The position numbers and the translations under genes were made by a program. The notes beneath the pieces are model-generated. The model did not search any database. It was not told where the DNA came from and worked only from the letters and a program-made list of their open reading frames with translations. Positions 5,058 to 36,597 of a stretch of 64,000 nt of DNA are shown here, in pieces (the first letter of the stretch is position 1; every line of letters begins with the position of its first letter). Origin of the DNA: Sphingopyxis sp. OAS728 (GTDB lineage: Bacteria > Pseudomonadota > Alphaproteobacteria > Sphingomonadales > Sphingomonadaceae); the NCBI RefSeq assembly GCF_014873485.1, contig NZ_JADBDT010000001.1, positions 4,644,501 to 4,708,500 of the forward strand. Direction: 5' to 3'.

Positions 5058-7295
5058 TCAGAAATTGGCGGTGGCCGACAGGATGAAAGCGCGGGGGCGC
5101 GTGACCGTCGCATTGGTCGGAACCGGCTGCCCGGCATAAAGTGCGTTGGTCGCGAGCGACGTGTAGCCGAGTTTGTCGAACAGGTTTTCGACCCGAAGCT
5201 GGAGCGACACCGGCGACATTTCGAGCCCGGCGCGCAGATCGACGGTGGTCACCGATGGTATCTTGATATTAGGGTTCAGCGCATAGCCGGGATAGCTGCT
5301 CGGCATGTCGGACTGCATCCGGATTGTCGCGCCGATTGATCCCTTGATCTTGTCGGAGAAGGGAATTTTCTGGTCGGCGAACGCGGCGACGGTCCAGCTC
5401 GGCGTCAGCGGCAATTTGTCACCCGATTGCGCGCCCAGCGATGCCGCGGCAACCGGGTCGATCTTGCTGATGCGCGCGTTCGTGTGGCCGACATTGGCGC
5501 CGAAGACGAAATTCTGCGACGGCCGCGCCTGGAGTTCGAGCTCGAAACCGTCGACCTTGGCCGAACCGGCGTTGCCCTGCAGCGTGACGCCGCCGAACAG
5601 GGTGTTCAGCTGAATATCCTTCCAGTCTATATGATAGACGGCAAGGTTGGCGGAAAGCGCACCGTCGAGCGCGGTCGCCTTGACCCCGGCTTCGTAGTTC
5701 CAGACGGTATCCGCGCGGATTACCGTTTGCGCGGTGGGCGGCAGCAGCGTCGAATTTTGCGGGCCGCCGGGGCGATAGCCGCTCGCGGCGCGGGCATAGA
5801 GGCTGACATTGTCGGTCGGGCGATAGCGGACCGTCGCGAGATAGGTGGTCGCATCGTCGCTGAACGACGTCGAGGTCGGCTGTGTCGGCGCATAGAAGAG
5901 GATGCCGGCGGGGCCGCGCGACGACTGGTCGTTCTTCGCATAGCGGATGCCGCCGGTCACATCGAGCCGGTCGGTCAGATAGAAGGTCAGGTTCCCGAAG
6001 GCCGCATATTCCTCGTAATTCGCAAAGGAGGTGCTGCGGAACAGGATGTCGAACGGCGTGGGGAGCGGCGTGCCCGCCGCGTTGCGCGCGGTGATGACGA
6101 ACGGGTAACGGCTTTTCTCGTTGGTGTAGAAACCGCCGGCGACGAATTCGAACGCCCCGATGCGGTCCGACACGAAGCGCAGTTCGGCCGAGAATTTCTT
6201 CATATTGGGACCAAGGTCGCCGATCGTCTGGGTGCCCGGCGGGACAATGCCGATGAGCGAAAGATAGCTGCCGTAGATGTCGGTATAGTCCGAACTGATC
6301 GCCGATTGCGTTTTGACGTAGTTCGCCACCGCGACGATGGCGCCGGCGTCGGTCTCGTAACTCGCGGTGCCGCCCACCGACCGATATTTGATCTGGCTGC
6401 CGCCGGTGCCATCGACCGCGCTGAACTTGTATTTTCCGAAAAGCGGCCGCGTCGTCCCGGTGACATTATCCTGTCCCGAACTGTTGTCATTGTCGATGTC
6501 CTGGTAAAAACCGGTCAGGTCGAGCGTCAGCCGTTCGGTCGGTGTGACGCGCAGCGCGATGCGCCCGCCCTTGATCGTCGAGCTGTTGACGTTGTTCTCG
6601 CCCGTCGCGACATTGTCGGTGAAACCTGCGGTTTTCCGATAGAAGCCCGAGATGCGCACCGCGAGCTTGTCGGTGATGACGGGCAGGTTCACCGCGGCGC
6701 GCGCGGCCCAGCCTTCGTCGCCGTGCGCGAGCGTTTCGCCCTCGACCTGCGCCATGCCCGAAAAGCTCGACGGGTCTGCCTTCTTCGTGATGACGCGGAC
6801 GAGGCCGCCGAGGTTGCTGGCGCCGTAGAGCGTGCCTTGCGGGCCCTTCAGCACCTCGATCCGCTCGACATCGACCAGGTCGGGAGACGGCGTGACCAGC
6901 GAGCCGACCGACAGGAAGCCGTTCGACGAATAGGGTGCATCGTCGATATAGAAGGCCGACGTGTTCGTCGTCTGCTGTGGCCCGGTGTTGAGCCCGCGCA
7001 GGATGACGGTACCCGTGCCCGGCGCGCCGAAATCGCGCTGGCTGAGGCCGGGCGTGAGCGTTCCATAATCGCGGAAGTCGCGGATACCGAGCGTCTCGAT
7101 CGCGTCGCTTCCGATCGCGGTAATCGCGGTCGGCACATCGCGCAGACGCTCTTCGCGCTTGCTGGCGGTGACGACGATCTCGGCGCCATGATATTCGCTG
7201 CCCGAACTGCCGTCGACCGATTGCGCGTAGGCGCCAGGTGCGGTGATCAGCGCGCCCGTGCACGCGGTTGCCAGCCATAATTTCCTGTACTGCAT
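5058..7295 (-). CDS. TonB-dependent receptor 1
   Basis: This is a 745-residue outer-membrane receptor. The start ATG at 7295 follows AAGGGGAG and begins a signal peptide that ends around GAYAQS. A TonB-box-like EIVVTASKREERL precedes the plug domain (LRDVPTAITAI, VERIEVLKGPQGTLYG, GGLVRVITKK), and the barrel ends in aromatic ATANF. It is closely similar to the receptor at 27124, sharing long identical stretches such as LGIRDFRDY and QGTLYGASNLGGLVR. It belongs to the CirA/FecA-like set expanded in sphingomonads, which import many compounds besides iron chelates. A perfect copy of the 14-bp palindrome lies 72 bp upstream (7367-7380), placing it in the TetR regulon. The exported esterase gene follows 16 bp downstream. 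Confidence 0.93.
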   Translation of the reverse strand: MQYRKLWLATACTGALITAPGAYAQSVDGSSGSEYHGAEIVVTASKREERLRDVPTAITAIGSDAIETLGIRDFRDYGTLTPGLSQRDFGAPGTGTVILRGLNTGPQQTTNTSAFYIDDAPYSSNGFLSVGSLVTPSPDLVDVERIEVLKGPQGTLYGASNLGGLVRVITKKADPSSFSGMAQVEGETLAHGDEGWAARAAVNLPVITDKLAVRISGFYRKTAGFTDNVATGENNVNSSTIKGGRIALRVTPTERLTLDLTGFYQDIDNDNSSGQDNVTGTTRPLFGKYKFSAVDGTGGSQIKYRSVGGTASYETDAGAIVAVANYVKTQSAISSDYTDIYGSYLSLIGIVPPGTQTIGDLGPNMKKFSAELRFVSDRIGAFEFVAGGFYTNEKSRYPFVITARNAAGTPLPTPFDILFRSTSFANYEEYAAFGNLTFYLTDRLDVTGGIRYAKNDQSSRGPAGILFYAPTQPTSTSFSDDATTYLATVRYRPTDNVSLYARAASGYRPGGPQNSTLLPPTAQTVIRADTVWNYEAGVKATALDGALSANLAVYHIDWKDIQLNTLFGGVTLQGNAGSAKVDGFELELQARPSQNFVFGANVGHTNARISKIDPVAAASLGAQSGDKLPLTPSWTVAAFADQKIPFSDKIKGSIGATIRMQSDMPSSYPGYALNPNIKIPSVTTVDLRAGLEMSPVSLQLRVENLFDKLGYTSLATNALYAGQPVPTNATVTRPRAFILSATANF

Positions 7296-7620
7296 CGTCA
7301 CTCCCCTTGGTCGCCAAGCCACCTCTTGCGTTTTGGTTCGATCTCTCCGGATCGATAGGTCAATTGATACATTAATGCATTCAATTGACAAGTCTCGCGT
7401 GATTGCGAGAAATATTGTATATAAATAGATAGTTATATCGATTTTGAAGAAAAATCGCGTATGGCCTGTCGAATGGCTGGCCGCGCGGAATAGGGCGCCT
7501 AGACCTCGAATCATGACCTTTCAGGATCGGATTTCCGGCGTATGTCGCCAACGGTTCGCCGAGAGCAGTGGAGCGTCGATATAATATTCAGTAATGCATT
7601 GTTGGTCGGACGCTTGGGCT
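7296..7620. other. intergenic region between TonB receptor 1 and folD
   Basis: I see no gene in these 325 bp. The stretch is AT-rich compared with its surroundings and holds the promoter region of TonB receptor 1, one perfect 14-bp palindrome (7367-7380) and a weaker related half-site, ATTCAGTAATGCAT, at 7586-7599. No terminator hairpin is evident after folD. Confidence 0.6.
7367..7380. promoter_or_regulatory. putative TetR operator, ATACATTAATGCAT
   Basis: This is a perfect match to the palindrome ATRCAY-NN-RTGYAT, 72 bp upstream of TonB receptor 1. It is flanked by CAATTGA on both sides, so the dyad is larger than the core. Repression by the TetR protein at 19728 is inferred from the copy before its own gene. 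Confidence 0.65.
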
Positions 7621-8565
7621 TCAGATTCGGACCAGTTGCGATGCCGGTTCCTTTCCGACGGCGGCTTCGCCATCGCGATCCGACTTCATCGCGATGGCCG
7701 CGCGCAGGGTGTTTTCCAGCAAGCATGCAATCGTCATCGGTCCGACGCCGCCCGGAACCGGGGTGATCGCAGCTGCGCGCGCCTTCGCTTCGTCGAAGCA
7801 GACATCGCCGACGATCCGCGATCCGTTGCCGTTGTCGCCCGGCACGCGATTGATGCCGACGTCGACGACGACGGCGCCGGGCTTGATCCACGATCCCCGG
7901 ATCAGCCCCGGGGCGCCGGCGGCGCTCACCAATATGTCGGCGCGTGCGACAAGTTCGGGAAGGTCGCGGGTGTGGATATGGGCAATCGACACCGTGCAGC
8001 GGGCCTGGAGGAGCAGCTGCGCCATCGGGCGGCCGACAATGTTCGAGCAGCCGACGACCACGGCGTTCAGCCCCTCGAGCGAGCCGAGCTCGTCGGCGAG
8101 CAGCATCATGCAGCCCATTGGGGTGCAGGGAATGATCCGGCCATCGACCGCTTCGCCGTCGCTCGCGAGCAGTCCGACGTTGACCGGATGAAAGCCGTCG
8201 ACATCCTTGCGCGGATCGACACGGCGCAGCACGGCCGCCTTGTCGATATGCGGCGGCAGCGGCAGCTGCACCAATATGCCGTGCACGGTTCCGTCGTGGT
8301 TGAGCCGGTCGATCAGCGCCAGCAACTCGTCCTGCGAAATCGTGGCGGAAAGCCGGTGACTTTCGCTTTGCATTCCGACCGCGGCCGCCTGCTCGCCCTT
8401 GCGACGGACATATATGGCGCTGGCGGGATCGTCGCCGACCAATATTGCGGCGAGCTTGGGCACGACGCCGGATTCGTCGCGCAGCCGTTCCACGCCGATC
8501 GCGATGTCGCGGCGCAATTGGTCGGCGCGCCGCTTCCCGTCGATTATCCGCGCTGTCGCCGTCAT
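7621..8565 (-). CDS. folD: bifunctional methylene-THF dehydrogenase / methenyl-THF cyclohydrolase
   Basis: This 314-residue enzyme interconverts 5,10-methylene-THF, methenyl-THF and 10-formyl-THF. FolD signatures are all present in order: [14 protein letters not shown] with the active-site Lys, [29 protein letters not shown], the dinucleotide motif GCSNIVGRP and [18 protein letters not shown]. The ATG at 8565 is preceded by GGAGAGG; a GTG four codons upstream overlaps that ribosome site and is less likely. It is divergent from soxB, with a perfect operator copy 52 bp upstream. It should oxidise the methylene-THF made by the adjacent sarcosine oxidase, feeding PurU. It may be a pathway-dedicated copy in addition to a housekeeping one elsewhere. 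Confidence 0.95.
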
Positions 8566-8616
8566 CTTCCTCTCCACTGCGGTGTAGGCCGAGTCTCATC
8601 GGCTGGCGGCTTATAT

Positions 8617-8630
8617 ATACATATATGCAT
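8617..8630. promoter_or_regulatory. putative TetR operator, ATACATATATGCAT
   Basis: This is a perfect match to ATRCAY-NN-RTGYAT, 52 bp upstream of the folD start. It differs by one base from the copy at 31475-31488 read on the other strand. Confidence 0.65.
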
Positions 8631-8996: not shown

Positions 8997-9010
8997 ATAC
9001 ATATGTGCAT
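8997..9010. promoter_or_regulatory. putative TetR operator, ATACATATGTGCAT
   Basis: This perfect consensus match ends 25 bp before the soxB start codon, close enough to overlap the promoter or early transcript and block expression. Its core ATACATATGTG is identical to that at 24198-24208 before a GGT-like gene. Confidence 0.65.
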
Positions 9011-9035: not shown

Positions 9036-10283
9036 TTGACGAGACGCTATTCAGCGCTGTCGCTTTTGCGCGAAGGATTGAACGGTCAACGCGGCTGGGA
9101 ACCGGCGTGGCGTGACCCCACGCCCAAGGCGCATTATGACGCGATCGTCATCGGCGGCGGCGGGCATGGCCTCGCGACCGCCTACTATCTCGCGAAGAAC
9201 CATGGCCTCACCAATGTCGCGCTGATCGAGCGCGGCTGGATCGGGGGCGGCAACACCGGCCGCAACACGACGATCATCCGGTCGAACTATTTCTTTCCGG
9301 AATCGGCTGCCTTTTACGAATTTTCGGTCCAGCTCTACGAGAAGCTGACCGACGAGCTGAATTACAACATCATGTTCTCGCAGCGCGGCATGTGGACGCT
9401 CGCGCACGACCGGCACGGGCTGGAGATGGCGCGGCGCTCGGCAAATGCGATGCTGCTCAACGGGATCGATGCCGAGTTCCACGACGGGCCGAGCGTGTAT
9501 GCGAATATCCCGGGGCTCAATCCCAACCCGCGCTTTCCCATCCTTGGCGGCGTCAACCAGCCGCGCGGCGGATCGGCGCGGCACGACGCGGTTGCTTGGG
9601 GCTACGCCCGCGCCGCCTCGGCGCTTGGTGTCGATATCATCCAGAATTGCGAAGTGCAGGGCTTCATCATCGAGGGCGGGCAGGTGCGCGGGGTCGAGAC
9701 CAGCCATGGCACGATCCGGTCGGACCGGATCGGCATGGCGGTCGCGGGGCATAGTTCGGTGCTCGCCGCAAAGGCGGGGCTGCGGCTGCCGATCAGTTCC
9801 TACGCACTGCAGGCCTTTGTTTCGGAACCGGTGAAGCCGTGCCTCGACACGGTTATCCTGTCGCCGGCGACGGGAACCTATCTCAGCCAGTCGGACAAGG
9901 GCGAACTCGTCCTCGGCGCGGGGCTCGACCTCTACCTGTCCTATGCGCAGCGCGGCAATCTGCCGTGGATGGAGCGTGCCGCCGCAGGGGTGCTCGAACT
10001 CTTCCCGCAATTCTCGCGCATGCGCTTTCTTCGCCAATGGGCCGGGATCGTCGACGTCGTCCATGACTCGACGCCGATCATCGGGCCGACGTCGGTGGGC
10101 GGGCTCTACATCAACGGCGGCTGGGGCACCGGCGGTTTCAAGGCGGTGCCGGCGGGCGGCTGGTGCCTCGCGCATGTCATGGCGACGGGCCAGTCGCACC
10201 CCCTTGCGAGCGCCTTCGGCCTCGAGCGGTTCGAGAGCGGCGCGATGATCGACGAGGCCTCGGCCTCGGGTATCGCGCACTAG
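9036..10283 (+). CDS. soxB: sarcosine oxidase subunit beta
   Basis: This is the 415-residue flavoprotein subunit of heterotetrameric sarcosine oxidase, which oxidises the N-methyl group of sarcosine. The start is TTG at 9036, supported by AGGAAGG upstream and by the family's usual N-terminus (RYSALSLLREGLNG, then WEPAWRDPTPK). A Rossmann FAD motif, YDAIVIGGGGHGLATAYYLA, lies near residues 34-53. The conserved RGGSARHDAVAWGYARAA carries the His that I believe is the covalent FMN attachment site in characterised enzymes. The C-terminus has the DAO-type INGGWGTGGFKAVPAGG. It is the first gene of a run soxB-D-A-G-purU-GGT-DUF885-MFS. The homologous N-methylglutamate dehydrogenase is an alternative, but no methylamine-pathway synthase gene is present. 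Confidence 0.93.
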   Translation: MTRRYSALSLLREGLNGQRGWEPAWRDPTPKAHYDAIVIGGGGHGLATAYYLAKNHGLTNVALIERGWIGGGNTGRNTTIIRSNYFFPESAAFYEFSVQLYEKLTDELNYNIMFSQRGMWTLAHDRHGLEMARRSANAMLLNGIDAEFHDGPSVYANIPGLNPNPRFPILGGVNQPRGGSARHDAVAWGYARAASALGVDIIQNCEVQGFIIEGGQVRGVETSHGTIRSDRIGMAVAGHSSVLAAKAGLRLPISSYALQAFVSEPVKPCLDTVILSPATGTYLSQSDKGELVLGAGLDLYLSYAQRGNLPWMERAAAGVLELFPQFSRMRFLRQWAGIVDVVHDSTPIIGPTSVGGLYINGGWGTGGFKAVPAGGWCLAHVMATGQSHPLASAFGLERFESGAMIDEASASGIAH

Positions 10284-10296: not shown

Positions 10297-10626
10297 ATGT
10301 TGCTGATCGACTGTCCCTTTTGCGGCCCGCGCGCGGAGATCGAATTCCGCTGCGGCGGCGAGAGTCATATCCAGCGGCCGGGCCCGCATACCCATGTGTC
10401 CGACGCCGAATGGGCCGACTATCTCTACTATCGCGAAAATCCGAAGGGCGAGCATCGCGAGCGCTGGTTCCACTCCACGGGGTGTCGCCGCTGGTTCAAC
10501 GCCGCGCGCGACACCGTGACGCATCAGTTCCGCGTCACATACAAGATGGGCGAGGCTTGTCCCGAAGCGGGCGAGAGCGCGGTCAGCGAAACGGCGCCCA
10601 GCGCGGTTGCGGGAGGCATCGTATGA
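10297..10626 (+). CDS. soxD: sarcosine oxidase subunit delta
   Basis: This is the small zinc-binding subunit of heterotetrameric sarcosine oxidase, 109 residues. Cys6 and Cys9 in CPFCG, together with His59 and Cys63 in WFHSTGCRRWF, match the zinc ligands of known SoxD proteins. The sequence DYLYYRENPKG is also typical. It starts 13 bp after soxB, and its stop overlaps the soxA start (ATGA). It is structural rather than catalytic, and its presence separates this complex from monomeric sarcosine oxidases. Confidence 0.95.
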   Translation: MLLIDCPFCGPRAEIEFRCGGESHIQRPGPHTHVSDAEWADYLYYRENPKGEHRERWFHSTGCRRWFNAARDTVTHQFRVTYKMGEACPEAGESAVSETAPSAVAGGIV

Positions 10627-13550
10627 GCGGTTGGCGTCTGAACACCGCGGGCCGCGTCGATCGCGGCCAGCGGATCGCATTTCAATGGGCGGGGCGGACA
10701 CTGCACGGCCATCCTGGCGATACGCTGGCCTCCGCGCTGATGGCGAACGGCGTGTCGATCATCGGCCGCAGCTTCAAATATCACCGCCCGCGCGGCCTGC
10801 TCGCTGCGGGGCTCGAAGAACCGAACGCGATCATCCAGCTTGAAACGGGCGCCGTCGCGGTGCCGAACGTCAAGGCGACGCAGATCGAGCTTTATGAAGG
10901 GCTGGTCGCGAACCCGGTCAATGCGAAGCCGAGCGTCGAGTTCGACTGGCTCGCGGTGAACAGCCTGTTCAAGCGCTTCATCCCGGCCGCCTTCTATTAC
11001 AAGACCTTCATGTGGCCGAACTGGCACTGGTTCGAGCCTGCGATCCGCAAGGCGGCGGGGCTTGGCGACGCGCCGCAGGGCGTCGATCCCGACAGCTATC
11101 ACCATCGTTTCGCGCACACCGATATCCTGATCGTCGGATCGGGCGCGGCGGGTCTGTCCGCGGCCGTCGCGGCGGCGAAGGGCGGCGAAAAGGTGCTGCT
11201 CGTCGAGGCCGATGCCGAACTTGGCGGCGGTTTGCTGTCGGAGCCGTCCGAGGTCGAAGAGCTGACGGCGCTTGCCTGGCGCGACCGGATGCTGGCTGCG
11301 CTGGCGGGCATGCCGAATGTGACCGTGATGGACCGGACGATGGCGTTCGGCTTCTATGACCACCAACTCGTCGGCCTGTGCGAGCGCGTGACCGACCATC
11401 TGCCGCCGTCGCAGCGCAGCGGTCCGCGCCAGCGCCTGTGGAAGGTGCGAACGAAGCGCGTGATCCTCGCAACGGGCGCGTTCGAACGGCCGATCGCTTT
11501 CGCCGGCAACGACCTGCCCGGCGTAATGCTGGCATCGGCGGCGCAAACTTATGCGCTGCGTTACGGCGCGGCGCCCGGGCGACGCATCCTCGTCGCGACG
11601 AACAATGACAGCGCTTATCACGCGGCCTTCGCGCTGCACGATGCGGGGGTCGAGATTGTGGCGATCGTCGACAGCCGCGCGAAGGGCGGCGAGGCGACAG
11701 AGGGCGCTGCCACCCGCGGCATCCGCACGATCATGCAGAGTGCGCCGACGAAGGCGAAGGGGCGCCGCCGCGTGAGCGGTGCTGTCGTCGCGGGGATCGA
11801 CGACGGCAAGGTCCGCCAGTCGATCGCCTGCGACACGATCCTGATGTCGAACGGCTGGAACCCCGCGGTGCATCTCCATTCGCAATCGGGCGGTTCGCTG
11901 GCGTTCAATTCCTCGCTCGAAGCCTTCCTGCCCAGCAAGTCGGTGCAGGCGGCGGTCAATGTCGGCGCAGCAGCCGGCATCTTCGACCTCGATATCGCCG
12001 TCGCCAGCGGGCGCGCGGCGGGGCAGGGCGAAGAGGTGCAGGCGCCGTTCCCGGCGGCGGTCGGCCCGACGCTGCACTTCGCCGACGGCGATGCGCGCGC
12101 GGCCAAGGCGTGGGTCGATTTCCAGAACGATGTGACCGCCGGCGACGTCCAGATCGCGGCGCGCGAGAATTTCCGTTCGGTCGAACATCTCAAGCGCTAC
12201 ACGACGCTCGGCATGGCGTCGGATCAGGGCAAGACCTCGAACGTCACCGGCATCCACATGCTGTCGAACTTGCTCGGCAAGCCGCCGCAGGCGATCGGCA
12301 CGACCAAGTTCCGCCCGCCCTTCGACCCCGTGACCATCGGCGGGTTTGCCGGGCGCGCGGTCGGCGACAATCTGATGCCGATCGCACATGCGGCGGCGCA
12401 TATGTCGGCCGTCGCAGCGGGTGCGAAGATGGAGAATTACGGCGCCTGGCTCCGCCCGGCCTATTTCCCCCGCGCCGGCGAAGACGAACATGGCGCCGTC
12501 GCGCGCGAGGTGCTTGCGGTCCGCGGTCAAGTCGGGCTGTTCGACGCCTCGCCGCTCGGCAAGATCGAGGTCAAGGGTCCCGACGCCGCCGAATTCCTGC
12601 AACGCATTTATGTAAACGGCGTCCGCAATTTGAAGGTCGGGCGATGCCGCTACGGCCTGATGCTCAGCGAGCAGGGCATCATCTACGACGATGGCGTCTT
12701 CGCGAAGATCGCCGAGGATCATTTCCTCGTCGGCACGACGAGCGGCCATGCGGCGGCAATCGCCGACATGTTGCAGGAATGGCTGCAGTGCGAATGGACC
12801 GACCTCAAGGTCCTCGTCGAGAATGTGACGACCGGCTGGGCGGTGATGAACGTCGCCGGCCCGAAGGCGCGCGCGGTGATCGAGGGGATCGGCACCGACA
12901 TCGACCTGTCGCGCGACGCTTTTCCGCACATGGCCTATCGCGAGGGCATGGTCGGCGGCGTCCCGGCAAGAATCCAGCGCGTCAGCTTCTCGGGCGAACT
13001 GTCCTATGAGGTCTCGGTACCGTGGGGCTTTGGCTGCGCGCTTTGGGACGCGATGATGCAGGCCGGCGCGCCGCACGGCATCACGCCGTTCGGGGTTGAA
13101 GCGCTGATGGCGCTCCGCATCGAGAAGGGTTTCCTCCACGTCGGATCGGATACCGATGGCACGACGATGCCGCAGGACGTCGGCTTCGGCGGTGCCGTCG
13201 CGAAGAAGCCCGACGATTTCGTCGGCCGCCGCTCGACGATGACGCCCGAGGGGCTGCGTGACGATCGCAGGCAACTGGTCGGCCTCGAAACGCTCGACAG
13301 CGGCGGCGCGTTCGAATGCGGCGCGCATATCCTGTCGGCCGACACGAAGGGGATCGGCGCGACGCAGGGGTGGGTCACCTCCTCGGTCCAGTCGCCCACC
13401 CTCGGCCGCCCGCTCGCGATGGGGCTGATCGCACGCGGCACGGCACGCATCGGCGAGACGGTGCAGGTCTGGAACCTGGGCAAGGGGCGCCCGGCGCGCA
13501 TCGTTGACCCGCGCTTTTACGATCCGGCGGGAGAAAAGCTCGATGGCTGA
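10623..13550 (+). CDS. soxA: sarcosine oxidase subunit alpha
   Basis: This 975-residue subunit starts at the ATG overlapping the soxD stop. The N-terminal part (about 1-95) is the Fer2_4-like domain with GRSFKYHRPRGLL. A pyridine-nucleotide binding domain follows, with ILIVGSGAAGLSAAVAAA around residue 167. From about residue 605 to the end lies a GcvT-like domain (YFPRAGEDEH, VGLFDASPLGKIEVKG, ALRIEKGFLHVG) that binds tetrahydrofolate and converts the oxidised methyl group to 5,10-methylene-THF. The whole complex therefore makes glycine, H2O2 and methylene-THF, explaining the flanking folD and purU genes. No catalase gene is nearby. The last eight bases overlap soxG, consistent with coupled translation. 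Confidence 0.95.
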   Translation: MSGWRLNTAGRVDRGQRIAFQWAGRTLHGHPGDTLASALMANGVSIIGRSFKYHRPRGLLAAGLEEPNAIIQLETGAVAVPNVKATQIELYEGLVANPVNAKPSVEFDWLAVNSLFKRFIPAAFYYKTFMWPNWHWFEPAIRKAAGLGDAPQGVDPDSYHHRFAHTDILIVGSGAAGLSAAVAAAKGGEKVLLVEADAELGGGLLSEPSEVEELTALAWRDRMLAALAGMPNVTVMDRTMAFGFYDHQLVGLCERVTDHLPPSQRSGPRQRLWKVRTKRVILATGAFERPIAFAGNDLPGVMLASAAQTYALRYGAAPGRRILVATNNDSAYHAAFALHDAGVEIVAIVDSRAKGGEATEGAATRGIRTIMQSAPTKAKGRRRVSGAVVAGIDDGKVRQSIACDTILMSNGWNPAVHLHSQSGGSLAFNSSLEAFLPSKSVQAAVNVGAAAGIFDLDIAVASGRAAGQGEEVQAPFPAAVGPTLHFADGDARAAKAWVDFQNDVTAGDVQIAARENFRSVEHLKRYTTLGMASDQGKTSNVTGIHMLSNLLGKPPQAIGTTKFRPPFDPVTIGGFAGRAVGDNLMPIAHAAAHMSAVAAGAKMENYGAWLRPAYFPRAGEDEHGAVAREVLAVRGQVGLFDASPLGKIEVKGPDAAEFLQRIYVNGVRNLKVGRCRYGLMLSEQGIIYDDGVFAKIAEDHFLVGTTSGHAAAIADMLQEWLQCEWTDLKVLVENVTTGWAVMNVAGPKARAVIEGIGTDIDLSRDAFPHMAYREGMVGGVPARIQRVSFSGELSYEVSVPWGFGCALWDAMMQAGAPHGITPFGVEALMALRIEKGFLHVGSDTDGTTMPQDVGFGGAVAKKPDDFVGRRSTMTPEGLRDDRRQLVGLETLDSGGAFECGAHILSADTKGIGATQGWVTSSVQSPTLGRPLAMGLIARGTARIGETVQVWNLGKGRPARIVDPRFYDPAGEKLDG

Positions 13551-14121
13551 TACAGGCGCAATCACGCCGGCGCGGGCCGCCGCGAACGATCTGCTGGTCG
13601 AGGGGACGGACGTGCGGTTGGCCGCCGAAACCGGGCTGGGCATGGCCAAGTTGCAGATCCTCGCGGTGGACCCCGATGCCTGGTTCGAACAGGCGCTCGG
13701 CCTTGTGCCGCCGTCGGCGCTGACCGAGATCGAACCCGGCCCGGTCGCCATCGCATGGCTGGCGCCGGGCGAGTGGCTGGTGACGGGCGGCGAGGCCGAT
13801 GTCGAGCGCGTCCGCCTCCGCTGCGCGGAAGCCGCGGGCGGCCTCGGCCTGATGGTCGATATCACCCATGCCCGCGCGACGTTCGAACTGAGCGGCGCCG
13901 CCGCGCGCTCGATCCTCGCCGCGCACTGTCCGCTCGATTTCGGCAACGAAGCGATGCCTGTCGGTGCCGCGAAACGATCGATGTTTTCGGACACCGGATT
14001 TTTCATCAGCCGCCGCGCTGACCGCGATGGACAGCCCTGTTTTCGGCTGATCTTCGATCAGGCGATGGCGGGCTATGCCGGGCGGATGCTCGGCGCAACC
14101 ATCGCAGGAGCTGCTTTGTGA
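13543..14121 (+). CDS. soxG: sarcosine oxidase subunit gamma
   Basis: This 192-residue protein is the gamma subunit of heterotetrameric sarcosine oxidase. The start ATG at 13543 lies inside the last codons of soxA. It contains LGMAKLQILAVDP near the N-terminus, LAPGEWLV in the middle and DITHARATFELSG, in line with the GcvT-related SoxG fold. It is placed in the standard soxBDAG order, and its TGA overlaps the GTG start of purU (GTGA). Confidence 0.92.
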   Translation: MADTGAITPARAAANDLLVEGTDVRLAAETGLGMAKLQILAVDPDAWFEQALGLVPPSALTEIEPGPVAIAWLAPGEWLVTGGEADVERVRLRCAEAAGGLGLMVDITHARATFELSGAAARSILAAHCPLDFGNEAMPVGAAKRSMFSDTGFFISRRADRDGQPCFRLIFDQAMAGYAGRMLGATIAGAAL

Positions 14122-16699: not shown

Positions 16700-16704
16700 A
16701 TAGC

Positions 16705-24396: not shown

Positions 24397-24410
24397 ATAC
24401 GATAGTGTAT
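24397..24410. promoter_or_regulatory. putative weak TetR operator, ATACGATAGTGTAT
   Basis: It matches 10 of the 12 defined consensus positions and is itself dyad symmetric at its ends (ATAC-N6-GTAT). It lies 58 bp upstream of the second MFS gene. Confidence 0.45.
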
Positions 24411-29558: not shown

Positions 29559-31280
29559 TCAGTTCGCGGCGATGCGCCGCGTCTGTTCCTCCACCTGCTG
29601 CTCGACCAACGGCAGTGGCAGCGCGCCGGGCTTCAGAACCGCATCGTGGAAATCGCGAATGTCGAACCGGTTGCCCAGCGCCGCACGCATCTTTTCGCGC
29701 GCGTCGTGAATGACCGTATCGCCGAGCTTGTAGGCCAGGGCCTGTCCGGGGATACCGCACGAATAGCGGACGGTTTCCGACCGGATCTCGGTTTCGGGCA
29801 TGAACGCCTTTTCGCGCATATAATCGCGCGCCTTTTCGAGCGGCCAGCCGAACGCGTTCATTCCCGTGTCGACGACGAGCCGGCACGTCAGGAAGGCGTC
29901 CATCATCAGCCGCCCGAAGCGCTCCTCGGGCTCGGGATACATGCCCATTTCGCCCGCGAGCGTCGCGGCATATTCGGCCCAACCCTCGTTGAAGGCATTG
30001 ATAAAGGCCTTGCGGCGCAGCGGGTGGAGCGTCTCATTTTCGTCCTGCGTCGCGAGGTGGAAATGATGCCCCGGGACCAGCTCGTGATAGTTGAGCGCGC
30101 CGATATGATTGAGCGGCCCCTGCGACAGGTTCGGCGAATTGAAATTATAGCGGCCGAGTTCGTCGGTGGGGGTCGGCGGACTGTAATAGCCGAAGGTCAT
30201 CGATGCGGTCAGGCCCTCGGCCAGCGGTCCAACGCCGTGTCCGGCCTTCGGTTTGAAGTTGAACGTGGCGTCGATATGCGGCGCGATCCGGTCGATATAG
30301 CGCTCGAACACCGCACTGATCGCTTCGTCACCCGATGCGCGCCATTTGGGGTCACTCTTGAGCTGGTCGAGATATTCGACCGCGCTTCCCTCGAAGCCTG
30401 CCTCGTCGAGCAAGGCCTGCATCTGCGCTTCGATGTTCGCCATGCGCTCCAGCCCGATCGCGTGCACCTGTTCGGGCGACAGGTCGAGCGTCGTGTGCAG
30501 CGGGACAAGCGCCGCAAAAATCTCGGCGCCGCCCGGATATTGCGACAGGCCAACGCTTTCGGGCGCTTTTGCCGCATAGTCGTCGCGTTCCAGATAGGCG
30601 ATAAAGGCGTCGAAGGCGGGCGTCACATCCGCGGCAATTGCACGCTCGATCTGTGCGAGCAGGGGCTCGGCATCGACCGCGCCCAGCCGGGACGCGTCGG
30701 GGACGAGCATCGCGGCGGCGCCCGAGCGGAAGCTGTTCAGCAGCGGCGCCGCCTGTTCGAGCTGGACGCGCGGCATATAGATGCCGCGCTCGGCCTGACC
30801 CACGGTGCGGTCGAACATCTGGCGGACGATCCGGCCATAGTCGCGGACCAGCGCGACATAGCGATCGCCGTCGGCCGGCGTGTCGAATTTATAGGCTTGA
30901 AGCGGCGCGCGGAACGAGTTCAGGAAAAAGCCTGCGCAATAGGCAGTGGGGGCGAACATCGCGAAGAAACCCGCGCCGAGCGGGTCGAACACGAGCCAGT
31001 ACCAGTCGGCCTCGCGCGACCAGCGTTCGGCCGTCCGCCGCGCGATTTCGAGCGTGAGCGGCAGGTCATGCGGCAGCGCGTCGGCATCGATGAGCGCGAT
31101 GCGGTCGAGCAGATCGCGTCCCGTGGCCGCGCGCTTGGTGATCGCCTCGATCCCGACGTCGGGCAGCCGGGTCAGCGCATCCTCGGTGCCGCCGAGCACG
31201 CGGTTCGCGCTCGACAGCGTCCAGACATCGTCGATGATCCGCAGCGCGGCGCCGAAATTCTCGACCGGCGTAAGCGTCAT
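29559..31280 (-). CDS. DUF885 family protein (putative metallopeptidase) 3
   Basis: This 573-residue protein has the signature HELVPGHHFH starting at residue 399 and, further on, FNEGWAEYAATLAGEMG. It is close in sequence layout to the partial DUF885 protein at the window start, sharing AGMTFGYY/ASMTFGYY-type segments and LGWTLE/FGWPLEKARDYM. It has no signal peptide. It is divergent from the third MFS gene, with two operator-like palindromes between them. It is probably a cytoplasmic peptidase acting on a substrate of the island. Confidence 0.87.
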   Translation of the reverse strand: MTLTPVENFGAALRIIDDVWTLSSANRVLGGTEDALTRLPDVGIEAITKRAATGRDLLDRIALIDADALPHDLPLTLEIARRTAERWSREADWYWLVFDPLGAGFFAMFAPTAYCAGFFLNSFRAPLQAYKFDTPADGDRYVALVRDYGRIVRQMFDRTVGQAERGIYMPRVQLEQAAPLLNSFRSGAAAMLVPDASRLGAVDAEPLLAQIERAIAADVTPAFDAFIAYLERDDYAAKAPESVGLSQYPGGAEIFAALVPLHTTLDLSPEQVHAIGLERMANIEAQMQALLDEAGFEGSAVEYLDQLKSDPKWRASGDEAISAVFERYIDRIAPHIDATFNFKPKAGHGVGPLAEGLTASMTFGYYSPPTPTDELGRYNFNSPNLSQGPLNHIGALNYHELVPGHHFHLATQDENETLHPLRRKAFINAFNEGWAEYAATLAGEMGMYPEPEERFGRLMMDAFLTCRLVVDTGMNAFGWPLEKARDYMREKAFMPETEIRSETVRYSCGIPGQALAYKLGDTVIHDAREKMRAALGNRFDIRDFHDAVLKPGALPLPLVEQQVEEQTRRIAAN

Positions 31281-31335: not shown

Positions 31336-31349
31336 GTACGTATCTGTAT
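31336..31349. promoter_or_regulatory. degenerate TetR operator-like site
   Basis: GTACGTATCTGTAT matches 9 of the 12 defined positions of ATRCAY-NN-RTGYAT. It lies 55 bp upstream of the third DUF885 gene, the same distance as the better sites elsewhere, which is the main reason to list it. Confidence 0.3.
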
Positions 31350-31474
31350 GTTTCATCATCTGCGCTATATGGCAAGACCCTCGGGCTCCTCCGGCCGCAC
31401 GTCGGCCAAGGCTCGACCGATATTCAGCCCCTTAACATCGCGAAATTCCGCCCGGATACCGGCGAAAATAAAAA

Positions 31475-31488
31475 ATGCATTTATGTAT
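31475..31488. promoter_or_regulatory. putative TetR operator, ATGCATTTATGTAT
   Basis: This is a perfect consensus match about 90 bp upstream of the third MFS gene. Read on the minus strand it is one base different from the folD site. Confidence 0.62.
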
Positions 31489-31577
31489 TGAATATGGCAA
31501 TCCCAGCCGATACCGTCGGTCCCGATTGGCGCGCATCGAATGCGCGGCCGGTCGGGATTCGTCGCGGAGAGGTGATG

Positions 31578-32894
31578 ATGAGCAATATGAGCCTTGCCCC
31601 TGCGGTGGCATCCGAAGCGCAGGACGCGGCGGCGCCGTGGCAGCTTTACCGGCCCGGCCAGCGGCGGACCTTCCTGTTCGTCCTGTTCCTGACCGGCACC
31701 TCCAACTATGCCGATCGCAACGTCATCGGCGTGCTGCTCGAGCCGATCAAGGCCGAGTTCGGCGTCTCCGATACGATGCTCGGCCTGCTCACCGGGCTCG
31801 CCTTCGCGATCTTCTATGTCACCGTCGGGCTGCCGATTGCCTGGCTTGCCGACCGCGGTAACCGGCAAAAGATCATCGTCTGGTCGATCACCGTCTGGAG
31901 CATCATGACGGTGCTCTGCGGCATCGCGCAGAATTTCTGGCAACTGGCGCTGGCGCGCGTCGGCGTCGGGGCGGGGGAGGCAGGCGCGATCCCGCCGGCG
32001 CAAAGCCTGATCGCCGACTATTATCCGCCCGAGCAGCGCGCCGGGGCGCTCGGCATCTATATGATGTCGTCGATGGCCGGCTATATCCTCGGCATGGTCG
32101 CGGGCGGCTGGGTGGCGCAGCATTATGGCTGGCGCGAGGCTTTCATCGTCATCGGCCTGCCGGGGCTGCTGCTGGCGCTTGCATCGCGTTTCTTCCTGCG
32201 CGAACCGCGCCTGATCCCGCGCTTCGCCGTCGCGCCCGAGGCCACCGAAGATGCACAGGTCAGCATCCGGCGCCTGCTCGCGAAACCCGCTTATCGCAAC
32301 ATCGTCTATGCGCTCGTCCTTTACTTCCTGATGGCCTATGGCGCGCTCGTCTTCACCGCCTCCTTCATGATCCGCGTCCACGGCCTGACGGTCGCCGAAG
32401 CGGGCGCGCTGTTCGGGGCGATGTCGGCGGTGGGCGCGGTGATCGGAAATCTTGGCGGCGGCAAGATCGGCGACCTCCTCGCCAAGCGCGATCTCGCGTG
32501 GCTCGCGCGTTTTCCCGGGATCGCGCTGATCCTCGCGCTGCCGCTCTATGTCGGCGCCTTCGCCGTCGGCAATCTCGTACCGATGGCCGCGATTTCGATG
32601 GTCGGCGGTGTCTTGCTGACCGGCGCCGTGCCGGCGGTCTTCGCTGCAATGCACACCGTCTGCGGCAGCAAGCGGCGCGCGATGGCCGTGGCGCTGGCTT
32701 TCTTCTTCGCGAACTTGATCGGGCTGGGCGCGGGTCCGGTCCTCGCGGGCGCCATCAGCGACCATTTTGCCGGAATTTACGGGCCGGCCGAAGGGCTGCG
32801 CTACGCGCTGATGATCATGTCGCTGACCTTCCTGCCGGCGGGGATCTTCATGCTGCGCGCGGCGAAGCATCTGAACGCCGATGCCGAAGACTGA
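31578..32894 (+). CDS. MFS transporter 3 (spinster-like)
   Basis: This 438-residue carrier has about twelve hydrophobic segments. Typical features are NYADRNVIGVLLEPIKAEF, AWLADRGNRQKII and ARVGVGAGEAGAIPPAQS. GGAGAGG at 31566-31572 points to the ATG at 31578; ATG at 31575 and a further in-frame ATG at about 31494 are alternatives. The S9 peptidase gene follows 15 bp later and a GGT-like gene after that, so this is a three-gene operon for uptake and hydrolysis. A perfect operator palindrome lies upstream. Confidence 0.9.
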   Translation: MSNMSLAPAVASEAQDAAAPWQLYRPGQRRTFLFVLFLTGTSNYADRNVIGVLLEPIKAEFGVSDTMLGLLTGLAFAIFYVTVGLPIAWLADRGNRQKIIVWSITVWSIMTVLCGIAQNFWQLALARVGVGAGEAGAIPPAQSLIADYYPPEQRAGALGIYMMSSMAGYILGMVAGGWVAQHYGWREAFIVIGLPGLLLALASRFFLREPRLIPRFAVAPEATEDAQVSIRRLLAKPAYRNIVYALVLYFLMAYGALVFTASFMIRVHGLTVAEAGALFGAMSAVGAVIGNLGGGKIGDLLAKRDLAWLARFPGIALILALPLYVGAFAVGNLVPMAAISMVGGVLLTGAVPAVFAAMHTVCGSKRRAMAVALAFFFANLIGLGAGPVLAGAISDHFAGIYGPAEGLRYALMIMSLTFLPAGIFMLRAAKHLNADAED

Positions 32895-32909: not shown

Positions 32910-34862
32910 ATGATCGAAAAAGATATGCGCGGATCGGCCGCGGCGGGCGAGGTTACGGCGCTGTATCGCACGCTGTTCCGCCCCGGCGAGGAACATCTGT
33001 GGACGGCGAGCGATCTCGATGCGGCGCCGGGCGGGCAAAGCGTCTATTTCTCGGCGCAGTCGTTCGAGGGAACGCTCGAGGACGGCCCCTCGGGTTGGAT
33101 CTGCCGGTTGGACATTGCGAGCGGTGGGGTCGAGCGCATCGCCCGCGGACGCCAGTATCGGACTGCGCCCGACGGCCGCGCGGCCTATGTCGGGAATCTC
33201 GCCGGCGGGCAGGAGCAACTCGTCCTCCGGTCCAGCGCGGGGGAGACCATCGCGTCGATCGCACTCGATATGCGGGTCGAGGCGCTCGTTTGGGCGCCCC
33301 GCGGCGACAAGCTGCTGGTGCTCGGCGCCGATGCGGGCGCCGATGTGTCGGGCGCGGAAGGCGGCTTCGCCTTGCGCGGCGATACCAAGGGGCCGGGGTG
33401 GCTTCCCGAAGTGGCGTCGTCGAGCGCGCAGAATCTGTGGCGACGGCTCTATATGTGGACGGCGGGCGCGACGGCGCTGCGGGCCGTGGCGCAGCCGCCG
33501 TTCAATATCTGGGAAGCGGCGTGGCTCGGCGATGACGCCTTTGCCGTGATCGCGAGCGATCATCATAGCGAGGGAAGCTGGTACGAGGCGAGCCTGCGCA
33601 TCCTCGATGCGGAGAGCGGCGCCGAGCGCGCGCGCTATACGCCCGCCGAACAGGTCGGCGTTCCCGCCGGGTCGCCCGACGGCGCCCGCTGGGCCATAAT
33701 CGAAGCCTTTTGCAGCGATCGCGGGATCGTCTGCGGCCCCGTCACTCTGGGCGGCATCGACGGCGAGCGCGTGCTCGACCTTGGCGGTGTCGAGGCGACC
33801 GATCTTCGCTGGCGCGACGCGGACAATCTGCTCTTCGCGGGTGTCCGCGATGCACAGACCATCGTGGGCGAGATCAACGTCGTGACCGGAGAGCGTCGCG
33901 AGCATTGGGCGTCGGAAGACCTCACGATCAGCGGCTGGTACCCCTCGGCGGTTCCTTCGGCCGACGGATCGGTGTTCGCGGTGGTCGAAGGCTATGCCCA
34001 GCCACCGGCAATTGCGCGCCTTTCAAACGGCGAGGCCGAGGCGCTTGCCGATTTTGCGCCCGCACCGGTACCGGCGATCCCCGGCACGATGCGCTATCAC
34101 CGCTGGCAGGGGCGCGACGGGCTCGAAATCGGTGGCTGGCTGGTCCTGCCCGATGAAGGGGCGCGGAACCTTCCGCTGTTTGTCGATATCCATGGCGGCC
34201 CCGTCTGGGCGCATCGCAACCGTTATGCCGCGGCGCTGCGCGCCGGCCCGGTGCTCGTCGGCAAGGGCTACGCCTTGCTCTTGCCTAACCCGCGCGGGTC
34301 GGGCGGGCGTGGTCAGGATTTCGCCCGCCGCGTCCACAAGGATATGGGCGGCGAGGATATGCACGACTATCTGGCGGGCATCGACAGCCTCGTCGCGGCG
34401 GGGATCGTCGATCCGGCGCGCGTCGGTGTGTCGGGGACCAGCTATGGCGGCTTCATGAGCTCGTGGCTCGTGACGCAGACCGATCGCTTTGCCGCGGCGG
34501 TGCCGATCTCGCCCGTTGCGAACTGGTACAGCCAGCATTATGCGTCGCAAATCCCGTGGTTCGACGCCGCGCTGCTCGAAGGCTCGCCGCGGCGACCGGG
34601 CGGACAATATTTCGACCGCAGCCCCGTCTTCTTCGCCGAGGGCGCGACGACGCCGACGCTGATCCTCGCGGGCGGGCGCGACAAGAATACCCCGACGGGG
34701 CAGGCGATCGAATTTTTCGGCGCGCTGTCGGAGGCCGGAACGGAGGCCGCGCTCGCCGTCTACCCGGACGATGGCCACAGCCTGCGCGGCTACCCCGCCT
34801 ATCTCGATTCCGCGGCGCGCATCGTCGACTGGTTCGGCCGCCATATCCCGGCGGCTTCCTGA
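32910..34862 (+). CDS. S9 family (prolyl oligopeptidase-type) serine peptidase
   Basis: This 650-residue protein has an N-terminal beta-propeller-like region of about 390 residues and a C-terminal alpha/beta-hydrolase peptidase domain. The nucleophile motif GTSYGG places Ser at about 511; Asp is in GGRDKNTP near 591 and His in DDGHSL near 623. The oxyanion region is FVDIHGGPVWAHRN and LLPNPRGSGGRG. There is no signal peptide, so it is cytoplasmic. S9 enzymes of this kind are oligopeptidases or acylaminoacyl peptidases and often accept proline-like N-substituted residues. It lies between an MFS carrier and a GGT-like gene with gaps of 15 and 22 bp. Confidence 0.9.
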   Translation: MIEKDMRGSAAAGEVTALYRTLFRPGEEHLWTASDLDAAPGGQSVYFSAQSFEGTLEDGPSGWICRLDIASGGVERIARGRQYRTAPDGRAAYVGNLAGGQEQLVLRSSAGETIASIALDMRVEALVWAPRGDKLLVLGADAGADVSGAEGGFALRGDTKGPGWLPEVASSSAQNLWRRLYMWTAGATALRAVAQPPFNIWEAAWLGDDAFAVIASDHHSEGSWYEASLRILDAESGAERARYTPAEQVGVPAGSPDGARWAIIEAFCSDRGIVCGPVTLGGIDGERVLDLGGVEATDLRWRDADNLLFAGVRDAQTIVGEINVVTGERREHWASEDLTISGWYPSAVPSADGSVFAVVEGYAQPPAIARLSNGEAEALADFAPAPVPAIPGTMRYHRWQGRDGLEIGGWLVLPDEGARNLPLFVDIHGGPVWAHRNRYAAALRAGPVLVGKGYALLLPNPRGSGGRGQDFARRVHKDMGGEDMHDYLAGIDSLVAAGIVDPARVGVSGTSYGGFMSSWLVTQTDRFAAAVPISPVANWYSQHYASQIPWFDAALLEGSPRRPGGQYFDRSPVFFAEGATTPTLILAGGRDKNTPTGQAIEFFGALSEAGTEAALAVYPDDGHSLRGYPAYLDSAARIVDWFGRHIPAAS

Positions 34863-34884: not shown

Positions 34885-36597
34885 ATGACCCTCGGCCCCT
34901 CCGCATGGCCCGAAGCCGATCGCGAGCATTATTGGAACATCCAGCAGACCGCGCTTCCCGGCAATCCGCCCGCGCGGGGCAGGGGCGGCGCCGTCTCGAC
35001 CGCGCTCAACGGGCTTGCGGCGCGCGTTGGCGAAGAGGCGCTGCGGCAGGGCGGCTCGGCGGTCGATGCGGTGATGAGCACGGCACTCGCGCAGATCGTC
35101 CTCGGCGGCGGCGCGGTCATCAGCTTCTTCGGCATCCTGTCGCTCATGCATTATGACGCGGCGAGCAACGACGTGACCTCGCTCAATGCGGGGTGGAACA
35201 CCGTGCTCGCCGAGGACGATCCGATGTCGATCCCGGGCAAGCTCAACCCGGCGGCCGACGGCGTGACCAACATGATGCTCGAAGGCGAACCGTCGGGACG
35301 CACTGCGATGGTCGGCGGCTTCATGCGCGGGCTCGAGGCAGCGCACCGGCGTTTCGGCAGGCTGCCGTTCGCGCGCCTGTTCGACGCCGCGATCGAACTC
35401 GCCGAGGACGGGTTCGCGGTTTCGGCGGGGCTCGCGCGCTACATCGACGTGCGCAAGGCGGACCTCGCGCGCCTGCCCGAAACGCGCTCGATCTTCTACA
35501 AGGACGACGGCACGCCCTATGTCGAGGGCGACCATTTCCGCCAACCCGCGCTCGCCGAAACCCTCCGCCGCGTCGCGAGCGAGGGCGCCGACTATATGTA
35601 CAAGGGCGCTTGGGCGGCGCGCTGCGTCGAGGCGATACAGCGCGACGGCGGCAAGATGACGCTACAGGACCTCGTCGACTATCGCCCAATCTGGTCAACC
35701 CCCGCCACGGTGGAGCGGGAGGGATATACGATCGCGGTCCTCGGCGAGCCCTGCGAAGGCTCGGTCAACCTCATCGAATCGCTCAATCTGGCCGAGGCCG
35801 CAGGGATCAAGGAACTCGGCCACTGGTCGACCTCGTCCGACAGCCTTGTACGGCTCGCCAAATGCTGCGCGGCGATCGGCGGGATGCGCTACGAAAGCCC
35901 CGAAGAGCAGCAAAAGGCCTTTCCGGGTATCGACATGAGCCGCGCGTCGCGCCTGACCCGCGAACATGCCGGCGAGCTCTGGCAGCGGCTGGTCGATCAG
36001 GAACCGGTGCGCTTCCTTCCGAAGGGGACGCATTCGGACGTCGTTGTCGCGGTCGATGCCGACGGCAACATGGCCGCGCTCTGTCACTCGATCAATTGCC
36101 TGATCTGGGGCCAGACCGCGATCGTCGTCGATGGTGTGTCGGTCGGCGACCCCGCCGCTTATATGCAGTCAATGGTCGCGGCGACGCCGCGCGGCGCGCA
36201 ACTGCCCAATCCGATCGAGGTCGGGCTCGTGATCAAGGACGGTCAGCCCGAAATCGCCTGGTCGTCGATGGGGGTCGGATTGCATTATCAGACGACCCAA
36301 TCACTCTTGAACGTGATCGACTTCGGAATGACGATCGAGCAGGCCGCCGATGCGCCGCGCCTGCTGCTGCCGATCTCGCCCGACGGCAGCCAGCGCGAAC
36401 TGATCCTGCGCGTCGTCGATGGCGAGTTTTCGGAAGAGCTGCTCGATGCAACAGGGCTTGAAATCAGATCGATCCCGCCCGCCGAGGCACGCTTCGCACA
36501 GGGGCTATGGGTGGCGGTCCGGCGCGATCCGTCGACCGGCGACCTCACGGCCATTTCGCCGCGCTATACCAATGGGCAGGCGGCGGCGATTCTCTGA
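34885..36597 (+). CDS. gamma-glutamyltransferase-like Ntn hydrolase 4
   Basis: This is a 570-residue protein from the ATG at 34885 (AAAGGA upstream), with no signal peptide. The GGT hallmark is ALRQGGSAVDAVMSTALAQ. The processing region reads GTHSDVVVAVDADGN, with Ser384 where classical GGTs have Thr. NTVLAEDDPMSIPG stands where the glutamate-binding Arg motif is expected, and SSMGVGLHYQTTQ replaces GGSR. It is clearly paralogous to the third GGT-like protein but lacks its Tat-type signal, so the two would work on opposite sides of the inner membrane. It is the last gene of the MFS-S9-GGT operon. Confidence 0.87.
   Translation: MTLGPSAWPEADREHYWNIQQTALPGNPPARGRGGAVSTALNGLAARVGEEALRQGGSAVDAVMSTALAQIVLGGGAVISFFGILSLMHYDAASNDVTSLNAGWNTVLAEDDPMSIPGKLNPAADGVTNMMLEGEPSGRTAMVGGFMRGLEAAHRRFGRLPFARLFDAAIELAEDGFAVSAGLARYIDVRKADLARLPETRSIFYKDDGTPYVEGDHFRQPALAETLRRVASEGADYMYKGAWAARCVEAIQRDGGKMTLQDLVDYRPIWSTPATVEREGYTIAVLGEPCEGSVNLIESLNLAEAAGIKELGHWSTSSDSLVRLAKCCAAIGGMRYESPEEQQKAFPGIDMSRASRLTREHAGELWQRLVDQEPVRFLPKGTHSDVVVAVDADGNMAALCHSINCLIWGQTAIVVDGVSVGDPAAYMQSMVAATPRGAQLPNPIEVGLVIKDGQPEIAWSSMGVGLHYQTTQSLLNVIDFGMTIEQAADAPRLLLPISPDGSQRELILRVVDGEFSEELLDATGLEIRSIPPAEARFAQGLWVAVRRDPSTGDLTAISPRYTNGQAAAIL

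Follow-up and report, generated by a model that had tools for sequence, protein, structure and literature searches.

A TetR-linked gene island in Sphingopyxis combining TonB receptors, hydrolases and sarcosine oxidase: a candidate route for N-methylated amides or peptides

We analysed a stretch of 64,000 nucleotides from Sphingopyxis sp. OAS728 (C1:4644501-4708500 of the 4.92-Mb one-contig genome; hereafter the window), in which a block of approximately 33,000 bases (about 4037-36597) looks like a set of genes under common control. Judged by its gene content, its promoters and its relatives in other genomes, this island probably serves, under TetR control, to import an amide or peptide containing an N-methyl amino acid and to hydrolyse it; the freed residue would then be demethylated by the heterotetrameric sarcosine oxidase SoxBDAG. 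The left part, on the minus strand, holds an esterase, a TonB-dependent receptor (TBDR1) and FolD. It is followed by a plus-strand run of SoxB, SoxD, SoxA, SoxG, PurU, a protein with the gamma-glutamyltransferase (GGT) fold (GGT1), DUF885a and the major facilitator superfamily (MFS) carrier MFS1. The tetR gene lies on the minus strand, convergent to MFS1, and is followed by GGT2 and GGT3 on the same strand. The right part consists of MFS2 (plus), an amidohydrolase (AmH), TBDR2 and DUF885b (minus), and MFS3, an S9 peptidase and GGT4 (plus).

All genes named in the first-pass annotation, which had been made from the letters and open reading frames (ORFs) alone, are present: SoxBDAG, PurU, FolD, four GGT-like proteins, two DUF885 proteins, the S9 peptidase, the prolidase-like amidohydrolase, the esterase, three MFS carriers and two TonB receptors. 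The starts of the receptors, the esterase, GGT2, MFS3 and GGT4 were set differently from the longest ORFs, and signal peptides were called by eye only. The left edge, previously placed at 5058, moves slightly outwards to include the esterase (about 4037-5041), which comes after the TonB receptor, as it does in locus L128, where the order is receptor, esterase, DUF885.

A shared inverted repeat in the island promoters

The first-pass annotation had asserted a single regulon without stating a basis. This is now supported by an inverted repeat found before tetR and most of the transcription units (Table 1). The 14-bp pattern, ATRCA-N4-TGYAT, came from side-by-side reading of the 220 bases upstream of the island genes and their relatives; palindromic motif discovery by expectation-maximisation returned mainly AT-rich low-complexity motifs. 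Since the window and related promoters had been inspected before the pattern was drawn up, the count in the window (9 sites with at most one mismatch, compared to a shuffle mean of 2.64 and a maximum of 8 in 100 shuffles) is partly circular, and uninspected loci provide the fair test. Eight of the 9 sites fall inside island promoter regions. When two mismatches are allowed there is no clear excess (42 sites, shuffle mean 33.9, with 6 of 100 shuffles reaching 42), so the sites before DUF885b and TBDR2 are not claimed as operators.

The whole genome contains 7 perfect copies, 5 of them in the island and the remaining 2 within long ORFs. With up to one mismatch there are 102 sites in the genome versus 45 for the pattern read backwards, and a lone one-mismatch site is therefore weak evidence. 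Counted over 1.9 Mb, made up of the window and the partly overlapping loci L001-L129, the perfect pattern is present 28 times, 5 times in the window and 23 times in the other loci, and the reversed control once; 2 of the 28 sites belong to L025, from Brevibacillus, and could be chance matches. Sites with 0 or 1 mismatch are present in the folD promoters of L002, L011, L006 and L022. The tetR promoters of L002, L011 and L013 have perfect sites and that of L006 has a site with one mismatch, and in L007, from Steroidobacter, the divergent folD and tetR genes have a perfect site at their starts, beside MFS3 and GGT1. A shared operator in the promoter of tetR itself and before target units is the pattern of an autoregulated regulon, and the TetR-family protein would be the one that binds the repeat.

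The sarcosine oxidase and its SoxB clade

The alpha, beta and delta subunits of the heterotetrameric sarcosine oxidase score above their TIGR family cut-offs. SoxB retains the RHD motif, of which we take the histidine to be the flavin-linking residue, together with RSNY and GGFK. The arginine, tyrosine and lysine aligned to E. coli SolA are kept; their roles in anchoring the carboxylate are described for the monomeric enzyme in the available part of PMC12582975. A tree of 69 SoxB sequences, made with a quick method, has three groups (Shimodaira-Hasegawa-like approximate likelihood ratio test (SH-aLRT) values of 95, 99 and 99) and one row outside them. Group III (31 rows, SH-aLRT 99) contains the window SoxB. 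The structurally solved 2GAG falls in group II, as do several loci in which a second protein weakly resembles SoxA, and group I is another kind of SoxB. The window SoxB and its near kin have the strand SPATG where 2GAG has SNHIH, and some group III rows retain the histidine. This change from His to Gly might point to a bulkier N-methyl substrate; in the SolA alignment the strand comes to lie beside, and not clearly at, the known pocket tyrosine.

With at most one mismatch and at most 300 bp upstream of soxB, the repeat occurs in 17 of 31 group III rows versus 1 of 36 in the other groups, and the reversed control pattern in 1 of 31 group III rows. Among group III soxB genes in loci that were uninspected before the pattern was written, 9 of 19 have a site within the same limits. 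Neighbouring genes were counted within 10 kb for rows with at least 9 kb of flank. A TetR gene is near 14 of 29 group III operons versus 1 of 35 others, and an SNF symporter near 5 of 29 versus 0 of 35. In a less biased subset, the 35 rows (10 in group III) that soxA alone had drawn from the order Sphingomonadales, TetR is near in 7 of 9 group III rows versus 0 of 24 others, and the operator precedes soxB in 6 of 10 versus 1 of 25. On these counts the tie between TetR, operator and SoxBDAG is firm across much of group III.

The three sarcosine oxidase subunits SoxA, SoxB and SoxD pass their models, and some group III sox loci (L113, L123 and L173) have Rieske genes in their vicinity, as would be expected if the island served ordinary glycine betaine, dimethylglycine or creatinine catabolism with the peptidase genes as bystanders. 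We consider this very improbable. The genome has neither PhnJ nor creatininase (creatinase was not searched for), on which ground the glyphosate and creatinine routes are rejected, and its single Ring_hydroxyl_A Rieske protein reaches 149 bits on the GbcA model, for which the cut-off is 670. In the window there is no glyA or sda gene, and the pattern of glycine betaine clusters (a GbcA-type Rieske protein, and glyA/sda with sox) was not found. The first-pass annotation had reported no glycine betaine demethylase or glyphosate genes in the window; extended to the genome, the absence of PhnJ, creatininase and a GbcA-level Rieske protein fits its view that sarcosine, if this is the compound, comes from elsewhere. 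The missing glyA/sda genes were also considered as a sign of a product other than glycine. This was dropped, as such genes are nearby in 1 of 29 group III rows versus 4 of 35 others (p 0.37, not significant), and a group II operon is present at the locus of the single group III row. In L022 (17316-20182) and L113 (3198-6094 and 11947-14818), flavin proteins resembling amine oxidases or phytoene desaturases form pairs with Rieske oxygenases next to sox genes of group III, the L113 genes at 3198 and 11947 being named from sequence only.

The available part of PMC12093977 describes the SoxBDAG operons of glycine betaine catabolism in Pseudomonas and Vibrio natriegens, which have the same four subunits and PurU for the one-carbon unit. 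Their partners are gbcAB, dgcAB, glyA and sda, with GbdR and SouR as activators in P. aeruginosa (same source). The island differs in having a TetR gene with a shared operator, FolD, peptidases, carriers and receptors, as well as a SoxB of group III.

Hydrolases, their recurrence and alternative readings

All four GGT-fold proteins match the family model PF01019 (167-198 bits) and thus have the fold of E. coli Ggt, but they score 122-174 bits on the GGT equivalog TIGR00066, below its cut-off of 358. Each has a serine in place of Thr391, and at the GGT1 position this serine is invariant in 21 aligned sequences. Arg114, Gln430, Asp433, Ser462, Ser463 and Gly484 are lost in all four; Gly483 is kept in all four and Asn411 in GGT2-4. 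We take Thr391 to be the nucleophile of E. coli Ggt and the other residues to bind the gamma-glutamyl group. Because most of these binding residues are lost and the equivalog scores are low, gamma-glutamyl compounds, which the first-pass annotation had included among possible substrates, are unlikely. Two ordinary GGTs are encoded elsewhere in the genome.

The earlier suggestion that a prolidase-type enzyme would suit N-substituted bonds fares better. AmH has 3MKV, 3FEQ and 3N2C as its nearest solved relatives and aligns end to end with 3MKV (367 bits). According to the available part of PMC11511702, these structures belong to the COG1228 prolidases Sgx9260b/c, which act on Xaa-Pro and N-acyl-Pro, i.e., on tertiary amide bonds. 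AmH stays below the cut-off of the Xaa-Pro dipeptidase model NF051886 (233 of 500 bits). As proline and N-methyl residues both make tertiary amides, it is a fair guess by analogy that AmH cuts the bond to an N-methyl residue. For DUF885, no treatment of function was found among the matches listed in the open-access literature, of which titles and the starts of abstracts were available.

With GGT1 as anchor, 59 loci were collected from named genomes, and the window proteins were mapped onto the GGT1 and sox loci. The nearest are from Sphingopyxis, with GGT1 97% (L002) and 94% (L003) identical. The association of peptide or amide hydrolases with the sox operon, as first proposed, recurs in other genera, in several cases in a different gene order. 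In Pelomonas (L013) the order is DUF885, FolD, PurU, Sox, GGT1, receptor, MFS3, DUF885, AmH and TetR. Peristeroidobacter (L155) has FolD, a receptor, S9, an operator, an SNF-type symporter, PurU, SoxA, SoxB, GGT1, a receptor and two GGT3 relatives. L128 has DUF885, the esterase, a receptor (67% to TBDR1), TetR, Sox, PurU, FolD and S9; L162 has AmH (72%), Sox, FolD and DUF885; and L022 has DUF885, MFS2, FolD, AmH, TetR, receptors, GGT1 and GGT3, with Rieske and SoxB genes further on. SoxA of any kind (E ≤1e-100) is encoded in 22 of the 29 GGT1 genomes searched, out of the 59 loci, and in 41 of 296 genomes of the order, two figures that serve as description only, since the taxa differ and 19 versus 2 candidates were scored per genome. 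Among the Pseudomonadota carriers within these 29 the figure is 16 of 17, the miss being Sphingomonas jatrophae (L021). GGT1 relatives (E ≤1e-80) are rare in the order (2 of 296 genomes, both with SoxA), and their absence from the 15 other genomes of the genus in this draw indicates that the island is accessory.

GGT, DUF885, AmH or S9 relatives are found within 10 kb of 15 of 29 group III operons versus 2 of 35 others. Several observations weigh against a dedicated route that joins these hydrolases to SoxBDAG. Many of the compared sox and GGT1 loci were drawn from genomes picked for GGT1, a selection bias, and in the rows drawn by soxA alone the difference is weak, with hydrolases near in 2 of 9 group III rows versus 1 of 24 others. 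Some group III sox loci adjoin HyuA/HyuB or Rieske genes without these hydrolases. Sox genes are within the fetched stretch in 10 of the 59 GGT1 loci, many of which are on short contigs, and in G057, one of the order's two genomes with GGT1, the GGT1 relatives are located away from sox. The unit of DUF885b, TBDR2 and AmH has no clear operator upstream. Finally, the peptidase core is also found in Firmicutes and Actinobacteria without sox nearby, and two Brevibacillus genomes carrying it have no SoxA. Related islands lacking sox, which the first-pass annotation had named as evidence against its proposal, thus exist and count partly against it. Hand-picked loci, which are examples and not a rate, include Brevibacillus, with GGT1 beside two M32 peptidases, DUF885 and an oligopeptide-binding protein, and plasmid pBCI2-1 of an ant-associated Pseudonocardia (L193:10001-19023), with GGT1, an amidohydrolase, a prolyl oligopeptidase (S9), an MFS carrier and a DAO-family oxidase. 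In the same hand-picked set, GGT1 neighbours include an amidase and an M19 dipeptidase in Sphingomonas (L018), and DUF885 genes and a peptide ABC importer in Lichenicola. No SoxA was found in the one Streptomyces genome searched, and three other actinobacterial genomes have SoxA elsewhere. Sox thus does not accompany the peptidase module everywhere, and the hydrolase tie is seen in part of group III; the clade looks like a demethylating core with differing upstream routes attached.

These observations bring up the possibility of two systems under one regulator, in which general peptide or amide scavenging and a separate sarcosine oxidase operon for external sarcosine or dimethylglycine are linked by shared control or neighbourhood. 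Both the peptidase core without sox nearby and the group III sox loci without nearby peptidases (L104, L114 and L126) agree with this explanation, which we nevertheless regard as unlikely. GGT1 and DUF885a directly follow PurU in line with sox, GGT1 starting 35 bases past PurU and DUF885a overlapping the end of GGT1. In addition, folD, a receptor and peptidase units have the operator in common. Although L002 keeps much of the window order, the orders in L013, L022, L128, L155 and L162 differ, so that the association is not just one inherited block.

A second possibility concerns the substrate, which could be a cyclic amide of the lactam or hydantoin type (e.g., N-methylhydantoin-like), with the ring opened by HyuAB in some relatives and by the GGT-like proteins and AmH here. 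HyuA/HyuB relatives lie within 10 kb of 3 of 29 group III operons versus 0 of 35 others. They stand beside group III sox in L104 (14078-17904) and L114, HyuA is beside sox, TetR and AmH in L159, and HyuAB is beside a TonB receptor, MFS3, GGT1 and AmH in L009 (4761-8609). The nearest NCBIfam models of these relatives are caprolactamase CapA/CapB, with HyuA reaching approximately half of the cut-off and HyuB a quarter, and the loci suggest that in those species a cyclic amide feeds the same demethylating core. For the island itself a cyclic substrate is improbable: it has no HyuB, the one HyuB-family protein of the genome is encoded elsewhere in a frame of 1242 codons, and the peptidase families S9, DUF885, M32 and M19 recur around GGT1.

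Proposed route and significance

The genes, the operator set, the recurrent association and the altered GGT residues can be read from the DNA; for the order of steps, TetR as the repeat binder, where in the cell the enzymes work, the ligand and the substrate, we infer the following. Entry through the outer membrane would be by the two TonB receptors, whose cargo would be an amide or peptide-like compound that exported GGT2, GGT3 and esterase may trim. The MFS carriers would import the pieces, which cytoplasmic GGT1, GGT4, DUF885a/b, S9 and AmH may then cleave, AmH at bonds to Pro-like or N-methyl residues. SoxBDAG would demethylate the freed N-methyl amino acid (sarcosine or another), yielding the amino acid and 5,10-methylene-tetrahydrofolate (THF), and FolD and PurU would convert 5,10-methylene-THF to formate and free THF. 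Release of TetR from the operators may be triggered by the substrate or by a product. The "peptide or amide" part of this proposal rests on several lineages, and the "N-methylated" part on the sox, FolD and PurU side. The chemical idea of the first-pass annotation, a sarcosine-containing peptide-like compound, perhaps of nonribosomal origin, therefore stays plausible in a wider form that includes other N-methyl amino acids and leaves out the gamma-glutamyl variant.

The creatine utilisation system of Corynebacterium presumably has upstream genes that differ from those of the island. TetR-family control, proposed for the island, is exerted in Corynebacterium by AmtR, there as nitrogen control (available part of PMC8864220). 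The individual families of the island are known, and its combination of genes, the TetR operator and the SoxB clade amount to a variant of known parts. No description of these three was found in the open-access literature as far as its text was available, including PMC10781821, PMC12582975, PMC11511702 and PMC12093977. Nor did that literature, within the same limits, yield a bacterial route that both cuts N-methylated peptides and demethylates the freed residue.

Table 1. Window positions of the island genes and candidate operators, with model scores
Feature	Position	Strand	Evidence and remarks
Esterase-family hydrolase, apparent twin-arginine signal	4037..5041	-	Pfam Esterase 47 bits; true start ~5041; after TBDR1
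TonB-dependent receptor 1 (TBDR1)	5058..7295	-	Pfam TonB_dep_Rec 129 bits; ORF to 7514; Met and signal-like stretch at 7295
Operator, perfect, ATACATTAATGCAT	7367..7380		upstream of inferred TBDR1 start, within longest ORF
Operator-like site, 1 mismatch	7586..7599		just 3' of folD, upstream of TBDR1
FolD	7621..8577	-	Pfam THF_DHG_CYH and _C, both domains
Operator, perfect	8617..8630		upstream of folD
Operator, perfect	8997..9010		upstream of soxB
SoxB	9036..10283	+	TIGR01373 632 bits, cut-off 529
SoxD	10297..10626	+	TIGR01374 121 bits, cut-off 116.5; PF04267
SoxA	10623..13550	+	TIGR01372 1255 bits, cut-off 1164
SoxG	13543..14121	+	PF04268 50.5 bits (cut-off 21); TIGR01375 68 bits (cut-off 144); ORF from 13504
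PurU, formyl-THF deformylase	14118..14960	+	TIGR00655 296.5 bits, cut-off 286
GGT1, GGT-fold Ntn hydrolase, no evident signal peptide	14996..16699	+	PF01019 188 bits
DUF885a	16696..18414	+	PF05960 461 bits
MFS carrier 1	18411..19718	+	PF07690 147 bits
TetR-family regulator, proposed island repressor	19728..20345	-	PF00440 37 bits; relatives adjoin group III sox loci
Operator, perfect	20433..20446		tetR promoter region
GGT2, GGT-fold, apparent signal peptide	20456..22297	-	PF01019 167 bits; start inferred
GGT3, GGT-fold, apparent twin-arginine signal	22320..24143	-	PF01019 198 bits
Operator, 1 mismatch	24198..24211		upstream of GGT3
Operator, 1 mismatch	24397..24410		upstream of MFS2; identical letters in L002
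MFS carrier 2	24468..25766	+	PF07690 159 bits
AmH, COG1228-type amidohydrolase	25812..27056	-	PF01979; PDB 3mkv_A E 8e-109; NF051886 233 of 500 bits
TonB-dependent receptor 2 (TBDR2)	27124..29373	-	PF00593 124 bits; ORF to 29466; start inferred
DUF885b	29559..31280	-	PF05960 404 bits
Weak operator-like site, 2 mismatches	31336..31349		upstream of DUF885b; as a class no better than chance
Operator, perfect	31475..31488		upstream of MFS3-S9-GGT4 unit
MFS carrier 3	31575..32894	+	PF07690 170 bits in ORF 29646-32894; start inferred
S9 peptidase	32910..34862	+	PF00326 155 bits
GGT4, GGT-fold	34885..36597	+	PF01019 170 bits; ORF from 34771

Other genes of the window lie on either side of the island. 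An AraC-family regulator (1793-2959) has a relative that adjoins GGT1 in L003 (58%) and one at most 2 kb from GGT1 in L004 (49%), and may belong to the system. Beyond the island, a serine hydrolase of the beta-lactamase fold (40273-41925) weakly matches the model of 3-succinylated cholic acid synthase, with 214 of 800 bits. At 43470-46753 a solute-binding protein has a response regulator and a 2CSK_N sensor kinase as neighbours, an arrangement that, we assume, resembles organic-acid sensing systems. The genes at 46886-56226 encode an M20 peptidase, a PepSY membrane protein, the arginine N-succinyltransferase AstA, a LysR regulator and two more TonB receptors, and are possibly a second peptide or arginine uptake set.

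Backbone N-methylation shields many natural and drug peptides from proteases. We tentatively suggest, as a broader possibility, that the island is one instance of a dedicated and widely spread system for eating N-methylated peptides of bacterial, cyanobacterial or fungal origin that contain sarcosine or other N-methyl amino acids. Such a system would rely on TonB receptors for uptake, on GGT-fold proteins of the Ser type, DUF885 and prolidase-type enzymes for cleavage, and on a distinct clade of SoxBDAG for demethylation linked to folate. A single TetR repressor would control it through a 14-bp operator common from Sphingomonadales to Steroidobacter. If the proposed route is right, the island would supply enzymes for N-methyl amide bonds, and would give a role to DUF885 and to a GGT-fold subfamily now labelled gamma-glutamyltransferase in databases. 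The defined candidate operator would also make the substrate findable by a reporter screen.

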